Assembly: GCA_002279065.1 (NCBI GenBank) | Contig: NCKB01000004.1 | Coordinates: 288,134-352,133, forward strand | Reading direction: 5' to 3' | Source: Lysobacterales bacterium 15-68-25 | Lineage (GTDB): Bacteria > Pseudomonadota > Gammaproteobacteria > Xanthomonadales > Rhodanobacteraceae | DNA: 64,000 bases | Shown here: positions 3,876-64,000 of the stretch, in pieces | Numbering within the stretch: the stretch's first letter is position 1 | Layout of the letters: every line of letters begins with the position of its first letter | Made by a program: the position numbers and the translations under genes | The notes under the pieces: generated by a model | Told to the model about the DNA's origin: nothing | Seen by the model: only the letters and a program-made list of their open reading frames with translations | Databases searched by the model: none

Positions 3876-4283
3876 CTACTCGGCGCCCGGACCACCTTCC
3901 TTGAGGCGACGCAGCTCGGCGCGATCGTGCTTGCCCGGGCGACCGGACGGACGCGGCGGCGGCGCCAATCGGCGCTGGGCGCGCGCAGCCTCGCGCGCCG
4001 CACGACTGGACTCGCTCTCGCGATACAGCGTCTGCGCCTCCGGCGCCGGGCCGCGGCGTTCGGACACGCCCAGCACCTCGACTTCCATCGTCTCCTCGCC
4101 ACGACGCACCACCAGGCGGTCGCCCGCGCGCACCGGCCGTGCCGCCTTGCAGGGGCCGCCGTTGAGCTCGACCTTGCCGCCGCCGACCGCCTGCTTGGCC
4201 AGGCTGCGCGTCTTGAAGAAGCGCGCGGCCCACAGCCACACGTCCACGCGCACCTCGTGCAGGGCTTCGTCGCGATCGGTCAC
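3876..4283 (-). CDS. hslR: Heat shock protein 15 homologue, S4 RNA-binding domain
   Basis: A 135-residue protein with an N-terminal S4 domain (residues ~10-70, VRVDVWLWAARFFKTRSLAKQAV) and a basic, arginine-rich tail, the structure of Hsp15/HslR. The family binds free 50S subunits carrying a nascent chain and rescues stalled translation. The start is GTG at 4283. It lies 3 bases downstream of the AEC permease stop on the same strand, so the two are probably co-transcribed. The tail (PSGRPGKHDRAELRRLK) is typical of HslR. Confidence 0.85.
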   Translation of the reverse strand: MTDRDEALHEVRVDVWLWAARFFKTRSLAKQAVGGGKVELNGGPCKAARPVRAGDRLVVRRGEETMEVEVLGVSERRGPAPEAQTLYRESESSRAAREAARAQRRLAPPPRPSGRPGKHDRAELRRLKEGGPGAE

Positions 4284-6457: not shown

Positions 6458-6518
6458 GCGGGACCGCAATCGGCGCGGCTCCCCATCGCACGGGCTTTCA
6501 TGTTTCAATAGCGGTCTT

Positions 6519-6600
6519 GAAGCGGGGGTGCCCGGTCGAACGGCCGGGCTGAGAGAGTCCCTTGGAACCTGATCCGGTTCGCACCGGCGTAGGGAGCTTG
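6519..6600 (+). ncRNA. TPP (thi-box) riboswitch
   Basis: The conserved thi-box core is present in order: GGGGTGC (6525-6531), a P3 hairpin, GGCTGAGAG (6547-6555), GGAACCTGATCCGG (6564-6577) and CCGGCGTAGGGA (6584-6595), with a short P1 closing pair AAGC/GCTT (6520-6523 with 6596-6599). These elements bind the pyrimidine and pyrophosphate of thiamin pyrophosphate. It lies 76 bases before the TonB-dependent receptor start, so it should switch the receptor-permease pair off when TPP is abundant. I could not identify an anti-terminator with confidence, so control at translation is as likely as at transcription. Confidence 0.95.
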
Positions 6601-6675
6601 CAGCAACCATGGCGCACGTCCGTGCGTCGTGCGCGCGCCGTCGCTTCGTCCTGCCCATTCGAGACGACGACGACC

Positions 6676-42144: not shown

Positions 42145-42155
42145 ACCCCGGCCCG

Positions 42156-42245
42156 GTAGGAGCCCGCTCGCGGGCGATGCTCCTCTCTAGTTTGCTTCGT
42201 TGTGGATCAGGAGAAGAAGCATCGCCCGCGAGCGGACTCCTGCAG
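42156..42245. repeat. REP doublet (REPIN-like)
   Basis: Two 24-base copies, 42158-42181 and 42218-42241, lie in inverted orientation with one mismatch and 36 bases between them. Each copy contains a short internal palindrome (CCGCTCGCGGG). The pattern is that of a REP doublet spread by a RAYT transposase in pseudomonads and xanthomonads. No RAYT gene is in the window. It lies between two convergent genes, the usual site for such repeats, and could stabilise mRNA ends. Confidence 0.8.
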
Positions 42246-61695: not shown

Positions 61696-62283
61696 ATGTC
61701 CGATGCCTCCCCCTTCATCACCGCCGGCCTGACACCGGAAGATACGCCCTACATCGAAGCGACGAAGCGCTGGGTGGAGCGGGCCGTGGTGGGGCTGAAC
61801 CTGTGCCCGTTCGCGCGGGCGCCGTTCATCCAGGGCCGCATCCGCTATGCGGTGAGTCACGCCCGCGACACCGACGCCCTGCTCGACGACCTCTGCGGCG
61901 AGCTGCAGAGCCTGGCCGCGGCCGACGCCGCCGAGTGCGAAACCACGTTGCTGATCCACCCACACGTGCTGGGCGATTTCCTCGACTACAACGACTTCCT
62001 CGACGTCGCCGATGCCGCGGTGGAGACGCTCAAGCTCGACGGCGTGCTGCAGGTCGCCAGCTTCCACCCGCACTACCAGTTCGCCGACACAGCCCCCGAG
62101 GACGTGGAGAACGCCAGCAACCGCTCGCCCTTCCCCACTCTGCACCTGCTGCGCGAAGCCAGCGTGGAACGCGCCGCCGACGCTATGAGCGACCCGGACG
62201 AGATCTACCGCCGCAACATCGACACCCTGCGCAGGCTGGGGCGCGAGGGGTGGGAAAAGCTGGGTGTGGGAAGCGGCGACTGA
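61696..62283 (+). CDS. DUF1415 family protein
   Basis: A 195-residue DUF1415 protein: [32 protein letters not shown] at the start, [27 protein letters not shown] and [39 protein letters not shown], the family's most conserved part. Function unknown; the conserved Cys, His and Asn residues suggest an enzyme. It is the last ordinary gene before the cassette array. Confidence 0.9.
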
Positions 62284-62289
62284 GTCGGA

Positions 62290-62326
62290 TCGGGGCGTGC
62301 GCGCTCAAGCGCAGGCCGCGTTATGA
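62290..62326 (-). repeat. Degenerate attC-like end of the last cassette
   Basis: Downstream of the last cassette gene the plus strand reads GTTATGA (62320-62326), a weak match to the GTTRRRY core, next to CTCAAGC. The other core is not clear. It may be the decayed final attC of the array. Confidence 0.35.
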
Positions 62327-62345
62327 CATTCAGCAATCTCCAGGA

Positions 62346-62780
62346 TCAGGCCGCGCCGCCATGCGGCGTGCGCCCCGACGAGTCGCCGGTTCCCTCCCGG
62401 CCGGACCACATCGCAGGCGCCACGGCGAAAAAGAAGAGCGACGCGAGATACACGCTGCCAGAGACCGGATCGCGCGAAGCAATGTACTGGCCAGGTGATC
62501 GGGCACCGAGAAAATAGGCCACGCACAGCTCCGCCCCGACCAGCAGGACAAAGCCGACTACACCGGCGAGCAGTCGCCGCGCGCGCCCCAGATCCATGTG
62601 GCGATGGGCCAACCTCCGGGAGGCCCAGACAATCACCGCGAGCATCACCGGCGTCTCCAGCAGCTCAGCGATGCGGACGCCGAAGACCGGCACAAGCAGC
62701 GGAATGCGTATGAACGCCAGAGCGAACCCGGCGCCGAACACCAGCAGGAAGTAGACCAGCCCTGCCTTGAAGATGCGCAT
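62346..62780 (-). CDS. Cassette gene D: conserved four-helix membrane protein
   Basis: A 144-residue protein with four hydrophobic segments (~5-22, 38-55, 69-90, 110-130). The first half (KAGLVYFLLVFGAGFALAFIRIPLLVP, then RIAELLETPVMLAVIVWASRRLAHR) resembles a widely distributed small membrane protein of proteobacteria without known role. Start ATG at 62780. It is flanked by attC-like sequences on the 5' (62796-62848) and, weakly, the 3' side, so it looks like the last cassette of an integron array. Confidence 0.7.
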   Translation of the reverse strand: MRIFKAGLVYFLLVFGAGFALAFIRIPLLVPVFGVRIAELLETPVMLAVIVWASRRLAHRHMDLGRARRLLAGVVGFVLLVGAELCVAYFLGARSPGQYIASRDPVSGSVYLASLFFFAVAPAMWSGREGTGDSSGRTPHGGAA

Positions 62781-62795
62781 GAATTCGCCTGCGGA

Positions 62796-62848
62796 GTCTG
62801 ACGATGGGGTCAAGCAGCGCGGTGCGTGCGCCTGGAGGAATGCTAGGC
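62796..62848 (-). repeat. attC-like site between cassette C and D
   Basis: A degenerate attC: GTCTGAC (62796-62802) and GCTAGGC (62842-62848) mark the outer cores, each one base from the GTTRRRY/RYYYAAC pattern, with the ACGATGGGGTCAAGC inner sequence similar to the ACGCTTGAGTTAAGC of the better site at 63548. The stop codon of cassette C is inside the right core, as is normal for gene cassettes. Confidence 0.55.
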
Positions 62849-63163
62849 GTACAGGAACAACAACGCCACAGACACGACCCCGGCCAGCAGAGGAAAGGCA
62901 ATGAACACCAACTCCAGCGTCCGGAATCTGGAACGGGGTGAAGGCAGCTTGCGGAAGGAGGCGAGAGCGAAGGCGCTGGCGACCAACGAGAGCGTGGCGG
63001 AAAGCAGCAGACCGAAAATAATGATGCCCATGGCGGCATTGCCGCAGGCGAACGCGTGAGCCGCACGCTGGGCCTGCGCATCCCGCTGTAGGGCGAACGA
63101 TGTCCAAAGCGGCACGCCGACATAAGCAAGTGATGCGATGAGCAAGGATGCTTTACGAATCAT
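62843..63163 (-). CDS. Cassette gene C: three-helix membrane protein
   Basis: A 106-residue protein with hydrophobic segments at ~5-23, 42-66 and 83-104 and a basic cytoplasmic loop (FRKLPSPRSRFR). No family recognised. Lower GC and different codon use than the upstream genes. Its TAG stop lies within an attC-like core and another attC-like site (63165-63222) precedes its ATG by one base, the compact layout of an integron cassette without its own promoter. Confidence 0.65.
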   Translation of the reverse strand: MIRKASLLIASLAYVGVPLWTSFALQRDAQAQRAAHAFACGNAAMGIIIFGLLLSATLSLVASAFALASFRKLPSPRSRFRTLELVFIAFPLLAGVVSVALLFLYA

Positions 63164-63164
63164 T

Positions 63165-63222
63165 GCTGTAACGCAAAGGTGAGCGGAGACGGAACGCCGT
63201 CCGCTTGATCGCGGCGTTGGAC
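63165..63222 (-). repeat. attC site between cassette B and C
   Basis: 58 bases. The right core GTTGGAC (63216-63222) fits GTTRRRY exactly; the left core is CTGTAAC. The arms AGCGGAGACGG (63182-63192) and CCGTCCGCT (63197-63205) pair with two unpaired bases, the imperfect hairpin with extrahelical bases that IntI recognises. Confidence 0.7.
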
Positions 63223-63235
63223 ACGCCGATGCACA

Positions 63236-63529
63236 TCAAATGAAAAACCTGAAAATGACCACCGCACCAACGCCGACGACGATGGGAACCCAAACAATGG
63301 GCGCCTGCCAGACTCGTAGCGCGGTAGTCCTGCCGAACTGTGCCGAGCCCGCTCCAAATACGCGCAGGCCGGACAGGAATCGGAACATGAGAAACGCCAC
63401 GGCGGACATGCATACACCGAACCCGAGCATGGCTAACGGCGCAGAACCGAACAAAACCTGCATGCCCGCAATGACGAGCGGACATGATGCAACCACATAC
63501 GAGTTCCTGCGCTTGGTTTTCTCATCCAT
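63236..63529 (-). CDS. Cassette gene B: three-helix membrane protein
   Basis: A 97-residue protein. A charged N-terminus (MDEKTKRRNS) is followed by hydrophobic segments at ~12-30, 32-52 and 74-96, with a short basic loop (RVFGAGSAQFGRTTALR). No family recognised. It sits between two attC sites (63165-63222 and 63548-63602) and has the lower-GC composition of the array. Confidence 0.65.
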   Translation of the reverse strand: MDEKTKRRNSYVVASCPLVIAGMQVLFGSAPLAMLGFGVCMSAVAFLMFRFLSGLRVFGAGSAQFGRTTALRVWQAPIVWVPIVVGVGAVVIFRFFI

Positions 63530-63547
63530 GCAATTGCGCTCCTGAGC

Positions 63548-63602
63548 GACTGACGCTTGAGTTAAGCGGCGGCGGCGCCGTCCGCCTTGAACGAGGTTAG
63601 GT
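63548..63602 (-). repeat. attC site between cassette A and B (best match)
   Basis: 55 bases. Right core GTTAGGT (63596-63602) is a perfect GTTRRRY. The segment ACGCTTGAGTTAAGC (63553-63567) and the matching GCCTTGAACGA (63584-63594) are, from memory of published attC sites, nearly identical to the conserved inner and outer boxes of chromosomal integron attC sites. The middle (GGCGGCGGCGCCGTCC) forms the hairpin. The TAA stop of cassette A lies in the core. Confidence 0.85.
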
Positions 63603-63860
63603 GCCGTTGCCGGACCTGCGGAAGATGACGATACCAGCGAAGACGAGATCTACCAGCGCGACTCCAACTAGCCACACCGCGGCAGGAATAAGAAAGTTTT
63701 GCATCGCGTCGCTAGCTTCATGTGCAGCCTGGGTAAGTGCGCTTTGAGTGCACTCGCCGAGCAGGTGCGGCGGTGCAAGGGATATGAGGAATCTCTCGGC
63801 GCTGAAGTAGAACGCCACCAAGTTCAGCACGACAATGATGACAAATGTCCCTTTGAGCAT
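63597..63860 (-). CDS. Cassette gene A: two-helix membrane protein
   Basis: An 87-residue protein with hydrophobic segments at ~5-27 and 59-79 and an alanine/glutamate-rich loop between them (GECTQSALTQAAHEASDAMQ). No family recognised. The ATG at 63860 lies 6 bases from the preserved attC core (63867-63873); an in-frame upstream extension would cross the IS boundary. Its stop codon is inside the next attC, typical of gene cassettes. Confidence 0.65.
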   Translation of the reverse strand: MLKGTFVIIVVLNLVAFYFSAERFLISLAPPHLLGECTQSALTQAAHEASDAMQNFLIPAAVWLVGVALVDLVFAGIVIFRRSGNGT

Positions 63861-63866
63861 GGTGGC

Positions 63867-63900
63867 ACCTAACGCTGGAGTTAAGCGGCGCGCGTCAGCG
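63867..63900 (-). repeat. attC remnant cut by IS element
   Basis: Core ACCTAAC (63867-63873; GTTAGGT on the minus strand) followed by GCTGGAGTTAAGCGGCG matches the better attC at 63548, but similarity stops by about 63890-63900, where IS sequence starts. Only the cassette A side of the site remains. Confidence 0.75.
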
Positions 63901-64000
63901 TGGAGAGTTCCTACGAAAAAGTGGACACCGTAGGTCAGACACATTGGGCCTCGAACTCGATCGGTGAACGATATCCCAAGGCCGAGTGTAAGCGGTGCTG
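63901..64000 (-). mobile_element. IS3-family insertion sequence, right-end fragment
   Basis: The element continues beyond the window. Its end begins at 63901 with TGGAGAGTTCC and carries AAAAAGTGGACAC (63916-63928), a terminal-repeat sequence common in the IS3 family, then the end of OrfB. A short inverted pair CTACG/CGTAG (63911-63915, 63929-63933) is inside the end. Confidence 0.8.
63935..64000 (-). CDS. IS3-family transposase OrfB, C-terminal fragment
   Basis: The last 21 residues of an IS3 OrfB (DDE integrase, rve family) are visible: LHSALGYRSPIEFEAQ, then a TGA stop at 63937-63935. The H-S-A-L-G-Y-x-S-P-x-E-F motif is the normal end of OrfB, where host-like 'N..RPH..L' regions close the catalytic domain. 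The rest of the gene is outside the window. Confidence 0.9.
   Translation of the reverse strand, partial: QHRLHSALGYRSPIEFEAQCV

Follow-up and report, generated by a model that had tools for sequence, protein, structure and literature searches.

Gene Cassettes and attC Sites at the End of the Window

The window analyzed here is a 64,000-nucleotide stretch of Lysobacterales bacterium 15-68-25 (genome G000, assembly GCA_002279065.1), positions 288134–352133 of contig C11 (NCKB01000004.1). It ends in an integron gene cassette array in which an element of the IS3 family of insertion sequences (IS) splits an attC site. Window base 64000 is the last base of contig C11 (352133). The genome is Dyella-like and was compared with the congeners Dyella lutea (G001), Dyella ginsengisoli LA-4 (G002) and G003.

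The distal end of the array is bounded by a conserved chromosomal gene for a DUF1415 protein (61696–62283, plus strand; PF07209, 231.7 bits), whose closest named relatives are those of D. ginsengisoli LA-4 and D. lutea, both at 94%. The original prediction for this DNA had described four small minus-strand genes at this place, and they are present as open reading frames (ORFs) of 144, 106, 97 and 87 amino acids: cassette genes 1 (62346–62780), 2 (62843–63163), 3 (63236–63529) and 4 (63597–63860). The start codons of genes 1 and 4 were chosen within longer ORFs. All four proteins are hydrophobic, and none matched a family above the cut-off in a Pfam and NCBIfam search. A homologue search with cassette gene 4 returned 11 proteins at E ≤ 0.001, the window's own counted. 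The antiphage role suggested for such cassettes was not borne out by the PADLOC defence models, which at E ≤ 0.1 matched none of six cassette proteins, four from the window and two from contig C22. The statement that only the distal end of the array lies within the window was right about the end at DUF1415, but it is the contig itself that ends at 64000.

attC sites were scored with a covariance model, R1, built on 22 attC sites from L166, L129, L130, L131, L134, L011 and L016, none of them from the window. The site at 63548–63602 (minus strand) scored 56.8 bits, with an E value of 3.8e-12 in a scan of seven sources and 171 kb. It consists of R'' ACCTAAC, L'' TTCAAGGCGGAC, L' TTAACTCAAGC and R' GTCAGTC. 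It therefore has the order of an attC site, RYYYAAC and GTTRRRY cores with L'' and L' between them; the perfect core that had been described is found at one end, while the other end reads GTCAGTC in place of GTTRRRY. Judged by its cores and score, 63548–63602 is certainly one full attC site. The other predicted sites between the genes proved weak or were half-sites. The degenerate site at 63168–63222 (minus; R'' GTCCAAC, 16.0 bits) and the site at 62796–62848 (minus; 12.2 bits) rank third and fourth for R1 within the last 2.3 kb. Unrelated places in the window reach 14.5 and 12.0 bits, and the two sites are therefore fossils at best by sequence alone. The stretch 63867–63916 scored 18.4 bits and is a half-site followed by an insertion sequence end, and R1 gave no full-length match at 62290–62340. 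As predicted, two gene stops lie in attC cores: the TAA of gene 4 inside ACCTAAC (63597–63599) and the TAG of gene 2 inside the degenerate core at 62842–62848. The predicted drop in G+C toward the array was also found: the value is about 0.70 over 59–61.5 kb, and the final three 500-base steps give 0.65, 0.58 and 0.57. Before R1, a regular-expression attC finder returned no site, its rules probably being too strict, and the looser pattern that replaced it again returned none within the window.

An IS3-Family Element Splits an attC Site

The original prediction read 62290–64000 as the end of an array. An array is present, but its last part, 63903–64000 (minus strand), was overlooked as the right end of an IS3-family element lying inside an attC site. 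This end is 98 bp long, carries the terminal sequence GGAACTCTC, reads in the cassette direction and is cut by the contig end. A longer copy of the same element opens contig C21. Its OrfA has an HTH_Tnp_1 domain (PF01527, 52.7 bits), and its OrfB has an rve core (PF00665, 83.3 bits) and an HTH_21 domain, and matches NF033516 at 256.8 bits against a cut-off of 160. OrfB showed no match to DEDD_Tnp_IS110. The C21 copy thus has the IS3 arrangement of an OrfA with HTH and an overlapping OrfB with rve; the window itself contains just the final 98 bp of the element. Also present are the terminal inverted repeats and the short target duplication expected of the family, with GATAGTTCC and GGAACTCTC as the element ends. 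The two copies are not identical, the C21 copy being without 22 bp near the OrfB end that are present in the window copy (L128 1151–1261).

The window side of the split attC is an L'-R' half at 63867–63902 (minus strand). It ends in the 3-bp target duplication at 63900–63902, GTG on the plus strand and CAC on the minus strand. Contig C22 reads CTCTAAC-TACTCGTTCAAGGCGGA-CAC ahead of the left end of an IS copy, and the window reads CAC-GCTGACGCGCGCCGCTTAACTCCAGC-GTTAGGT after the right end. The CAC common to both is read as the target duplication, and from this duplication and synteny C22 appears to join the window end through the element. Of another copy, the left end lies at the terminus of contig C4 and the right end on C21; these two ends are assigned to one copy by elimination. 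A VOC/glyoxalase-fold gene follows the half-attC of this second copy (L128 1275–1661), with weak, below-cut-off similarity to many VOC families. Chance or an assembly artefact was considered for the IS-attC junction and rejected, the junction being present at two different attC sites here and at many in other genomes.

Placement of the Element across Xanthomonadales

A search with the element DNA found matches in 74 of 233 genomes of the family (E ≤ 0.001) and in 32 of 398 genomes of the order (E ≤ 1e-10), own genome included in both. The scored set comprised the returned loci and 28 fetched stretches (20 + 8), mainly matches reaching an element end. In the first relatives examined, the left end followed the R''-L'' half of an attC site and the right end preceded the L'-R' half. 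Chance rates were taken from 119,640 positions of window 1–60000 on both strands.

The left-end tests used 57 distinct ends, each flanked by 24 bases or more. With an allowed R'' distance of 14–21 bases, R'' was found at 44 of them (31 of 57 in an earlier scoring with a shorter allowed distance, which was widened after ends at 20 bases had been seen). L'' was found at 35, either motif at 51 and both at 28. The chance per position is 0.175 for either motif and 0.0004 for both. Where R'' was found, 19 or 20 bases separated its core, RYYYAAC, from the left end in 39 cases out of 44. On the other side, L'-R' followed 17 of 25 right ends at 27–62 bases, the distance varying with the attC loop, against a chance rate of 0.0008. 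By eye, no left end among the 57 lay on the R' side. Matching 3-bp flanks framed 12 of 18 full-length copies, or 12 of 19 with L162, which was dropped beforehand because its right end resembled a chance pattern match. At L178/L226 (G170:C2:812368–812611), element ends only about 240 bp apart lie in a decayed attC, resembling a miniature inverted-repeat transposable element derived from the IS.

Wider Relatives, Transposase Tree and Controls

A search with OrfB across the class found 8 of 369 genomes at E ≤ 1e-60, own included. Nine further class loci were read by eye; five had both attC halves (L270, L271, L273, L274 and L275) and four had one (L267, L268, L269 and L272), giving at least one half in nine of nine. 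Across the phylum, 34 of 398 genomes matched at E ≤ 1e-40, again with our own. Among the 29 other phylum loci returned, both halves were present in L277, L278, L283 and L284 and the left half in L276; L299 and L301 were ambiguous. The remaining 22 were without attC, five of them with poor ends or flanks: the ends of L280, L289, L295 and L300 were weakly or not called and the right flank of L282 is a single base, which makes these labels weak.

The OrfB tree had 54 rows, with L249 and L250 left out as too short and L180 as giving no match. A clade of 23 rows (99/98) comprised 21 attC rows together with L276 and L284. A second group (92/81) held four attC rows, L271, L273, L274 and L275, and a group of 26 (96/99) held 24 rows labelled as without attC and two ambiguous ones. 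The attC label required 4 changes on the tree, with L284 labelled as without attC, compared with 17.9 in shuffles. The labels were assigned by eye ahead of tree building, at a time when the identity ranking was already known. L267, L268, L269 and L272 were labelled attC on one half-site, and L284 was later re-read as having attC on both sides. The tree is unrooted and is compatible with either one or two origins of the attC habit. In the second group, read by eye, the element lies nearer the hairpin tip and its direction is not constant; the strict address may be confined to the first group.

A single genome, G745, is the source of L271, L274 and L275. It is taken as Candidatus Tenderia electrophaga from the plasmid record CP013100, which has a copy at the L275 coordinates. 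CP013100 also encodes an integron integrase (TIGR02249, 398.6 bits) about 2.3 kb from the transposase gene. In a plasmid search, 10 records matched part of the element by DNA, over no more than 21% of its length; by protein, four records matched at E ≤ 1e-50, one of them Ca. Tenderia.

Six other IS3 transposase loci (L245, L249, L250, L253, L254 and L259), from four of nine genomes, served as a control. R1 at E ≤ 1 found no attC in these six except a 14.6-bit fragment in L254. Their flanks showed no attC in the five loci with called ends; L253 is a partial match with ends not called. R1 is tuned to this attC type, which makes the control fair mainly for these genomes.

The Array Locus in Congeners and the Loss of the Integrase

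In G003 as in D. lutea, C22 and the C11 end fall into a single region, the mapping of C22 beginning at base 822 for G003 and at base 1011 for D. lutea. As aligned, the array locus is bounded on both sides and is common to the congeners. Comparing strains beside DUF1415 had been proposed as a check, and the content was not fixed. G003 retains window 62346–63550 at 88.8%, which covers three of the four cassette genes, and D. lutea does not retain it and has different cassettes at this locus. In D. ginsengisoli, the contig ends in an array next to DUF1415 whose orientation is the reverse of that seen in the window and in D. lutea (L135 10115–10566); L135 is the same place as L048, and its two attC sites are oppositely oriented. 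The homology with G003 ends in the R' core of the attC at 63548–63602, and upstream of that core G003 carries another small gene and a degenerate attC. The R' core is the point at which the integrase crosses over. On this alignment the locus content switches at the integrase crossover core. At the G003 locus (L132), R1 yielded just an 11.5-bit fragment. R1 was run on 34 of 80 fetched DUF1415 loci and, the window aside, found attC in two (L048 and L049).

The prediction also directed the search for intI beyond 64000. The contig ends there, and a TIGR02249 profile search of the whole genome found no integron integrase over the cut-off, the best match being 72.8 bits or less. An intI match at E ≤ 1e-40 was present in all three congeners and in 22 of 40 genomes searched, own included. 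In G010 the search output split intI into two pieces (G010:C3:121442–122384), possibly a broken integrase. The DNA adjoining intI of D. lutea maps to contig C13 of our genome, which keeps only 58 bp of the intI 3' end, 93% identical and encoding 21 residues near the C-terminus. This remnant adjoins a transposase with DUF772 and DDE domains.

A covariance model check had likewise been proposed, and R1 confirmed a chromosomal cassette array with its distal end at DUF1415 in this member of the Xanthomonadales. At E ≤ 1, R1 gave eight places in the whole genome: two each on C4, C6 and C17 and one each on C22 and C11. Of these, the second on C6 is weak (E 0.019), and both on C4 belonged to the training set. 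A complete integron, with intI beside an attC array, was not found. A cluster of attC sites lacking an integron integrase (CALIN) is defined as at least two close attC sites without intI, the threshold of two being as quoted in a passage of PMC12444791. The sites 63548–63602 and C22:450–506, with the split attC between them, make up such a cluster, a count that depends on the C22–C11 join. No integron integrase over the cut-off was found in the genome, and by this definition its arrays are therefore CALINs. With the integrase gone, the array would change only through an integrase acting in trans, through homologous recombination, including that between the two IS copies, or through decay.

Proposed Target Choice and Likely Fate of the Interrupted Array

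The window very probably holds the distal part of a CALIN by DUF1415 in which an attC has been split by an IS3-family lineage that mostly sits in attC sites, with a transposase predicted to recognize the R''-L'' arm and to insert in one orientation. The place, side, duplication and family of the element are direct observations. As in other IS3 elements, a transposon circle would attack the target. Since loops differ in length but the left distance stays constant, the transposase is predicted to find its address in R'' and L'' and not at the hairpin tip. An attC whose loop carries about 1.2 kb would be expected to stop recombining, and it is likely that the interruption freezes the cassettes in place. 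If the split attC is no longer recombined, the cassettes on both sides would therefore become one fixed block. Because the element reads in the cassette direction, on the window minus strand, transcription could run on from it into distal cassettes that are remote from any integron promoter.

The wider reading is also probable, if somewhat less firmly so. In it, a deep IS3 lineage has settled in attC separately from the IS1111-attC group, uses the R''-L'' address, ranges from Xanthomonadales to Candidatus Tenderia, reaches at least one genome beyond the class and works as a one-way lock, making mobile cassettes into fixed and possibly transcribed blocks. An IS3-type transposase would then be a second, independent way to recognize attC. 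This would allow one to ask whether the transposase reads the sequence or the folded strand. It would also offer a cause for arrays that cease shuffling, and show how a genome without an integrase keeps its cassettes.

Several results weigh against these readings. At six of the 57 left ends both motifs are missing, and the script found no L'-R' after 8 of the 25 right ends: by eye, L'-R' is decayed, shortened or deviating at L144, L150, L156 and L226 and absent at L141, L159, L168 and L237. At L143 attC is seen only to the right of the element, and at L215 the duplication occurs without any attC. The looser test, R'' or L'', is passed by chance at 17.5% of positions, which leaves the joint and right-end tests as the only strong ones. 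For loci outside Xanthomonadales, half-sites were identified by eye. In our genome, the join of C22 to the window is inferred, and the flanks of the other IS copy are unequal (CCG and CGC). Neither the DNA folding of 63548–63602 (z −0.96) nor that of the top strand of the joined empty site (z 0.55) was better than that of shuffles. A simple scan of 62284–64000, the IS end included, found no sigma-70-like promoter.

Of the other explanations, the one that survives best is a preference of the element for G+C-rich hairpins in general or for a short motif such as CAAGGCGGAC, attC being hit as a common example. L'' is often TTCAAGGCGGAC, and the IS3 relatives IS1397 and ISKpn1 go for repetitive extragenic palindromic (REP) sequences, as described in a passage of PMC1525189. 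We nevertheless consider this explanation improbable: L161, L162, L172, L176 and L184, of which only the left half is known, have another L'' and yet have R'' at 19–20 bases, and the long-loop sites L147 and L149 keep the element near R'' and not at the hairpin tip.

Still less probable, and already disfavoured, is a single ancient insertion into one attC, after which integron integrases spread the element as part of a cassette; the attC halves would then be inherited and not targeted. Cassettes do travel between genomes, and L151, L173 and L180, from three genomes, have nearly equal left flanks, though an IS110-type element abuts L173. Among most copies, however, the half-sites and the adjacent DNA differ, and where both halves were read they join by eye into ordinary attC sites of different loop types (for example L137, L139 and L147). 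The 3-bp duplication also varies (CGG, CGC, CCG, CAC, CAT and ACC) around the framed copies, as separate insertions would leave it. That there is no integron here, only small membrane-protein genes with chance palindromes, is scarcely credible: two of the four sites score near background and three genes hold the same place in G003, but it is already refuted for 63548–63602, a site outside the training set that scores 56.8 bits. D. lutea also has attC sites of this type, as do four other contigs of the genome, and the content switch falls in the R' core.

Comparison with Known Systems

Apart from serving the integron integrase as targets, the attC sites of cassettes are known to house insertion sequences of the IS1111-attC group (Tetu and Holmes 2008; Post and Hall 2009, as cited in passages of PMC12444791, PMC11089894 and PMC11187229), and IS1111-type elements are described as choosing targets by a guide RNA (PMC11187229). 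The element in our window shares the attC target with this group. It differs in having an IS3-type rve transposase rather than an IS110-type DEDD transposase, and in lying in the L''-loop region with a 3-bp duplication. In the passages found by a literature search, no IS3 lineage was reported to target attC and the IS1111-type was the only attC-targeting IS named; a named ISfinder isoform may exist. At L173, upstream of position 4001, an IS110-type transposase gene adjoins the attC half that holds the IS3 element, so that two unrelated attC-living elements possibly occupy one site; the flanks of L151 and L180 are similar.

IS1397, ISKpn1 and ISPsy8 are likewise IS3 elements with a specific palindromic target, a choice attributed to their transposase in the passage of PMC1525189 concerned. 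Their target is REP whereas the present target is attC, and the likeness is drawn from the target description. The flanks of the present element are mostly attC halves; no search for REP sites was made. The Xanthomonas CALINs described in PMC12444791 are, in the part concerned, also attC clusters without intI at conserved chromosomal places. The present one differs in its family and locus (DUF1415), its intI remnant and its attC split by IS3. The Vibrio cholerae superintegron also has IS3 elements in a cassette array; in the passage of PMC11023631, one copy lies in a cassette coding sequence and the other in the very last cassette, and neither is said there to be in attC. IS3 accounts for 23% of the transposases in phyllosphere cassettes, their position not being stated in the passage (PMC11089894). 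A precedent for the proposed effects is IS1999 in attI1, for which a passage of PMC3518468 reports that the insertion sequence was proposed to stabilize cassettes and shown to bring a promoter.

Other Observations

An Rfam scan of the window gave one match, a thiamine pyrophosphate (TPP) riboswitch at 6514–6612 (plus strand, 67.3 bits), and no attC family. An imperfect palindromic repeat of about 80 bp was found at 42149–42244 and at 13 other places in the genome, most of them matching on both strands. It looks REP-like, and the repeat also adjoins intI of D. lutea.

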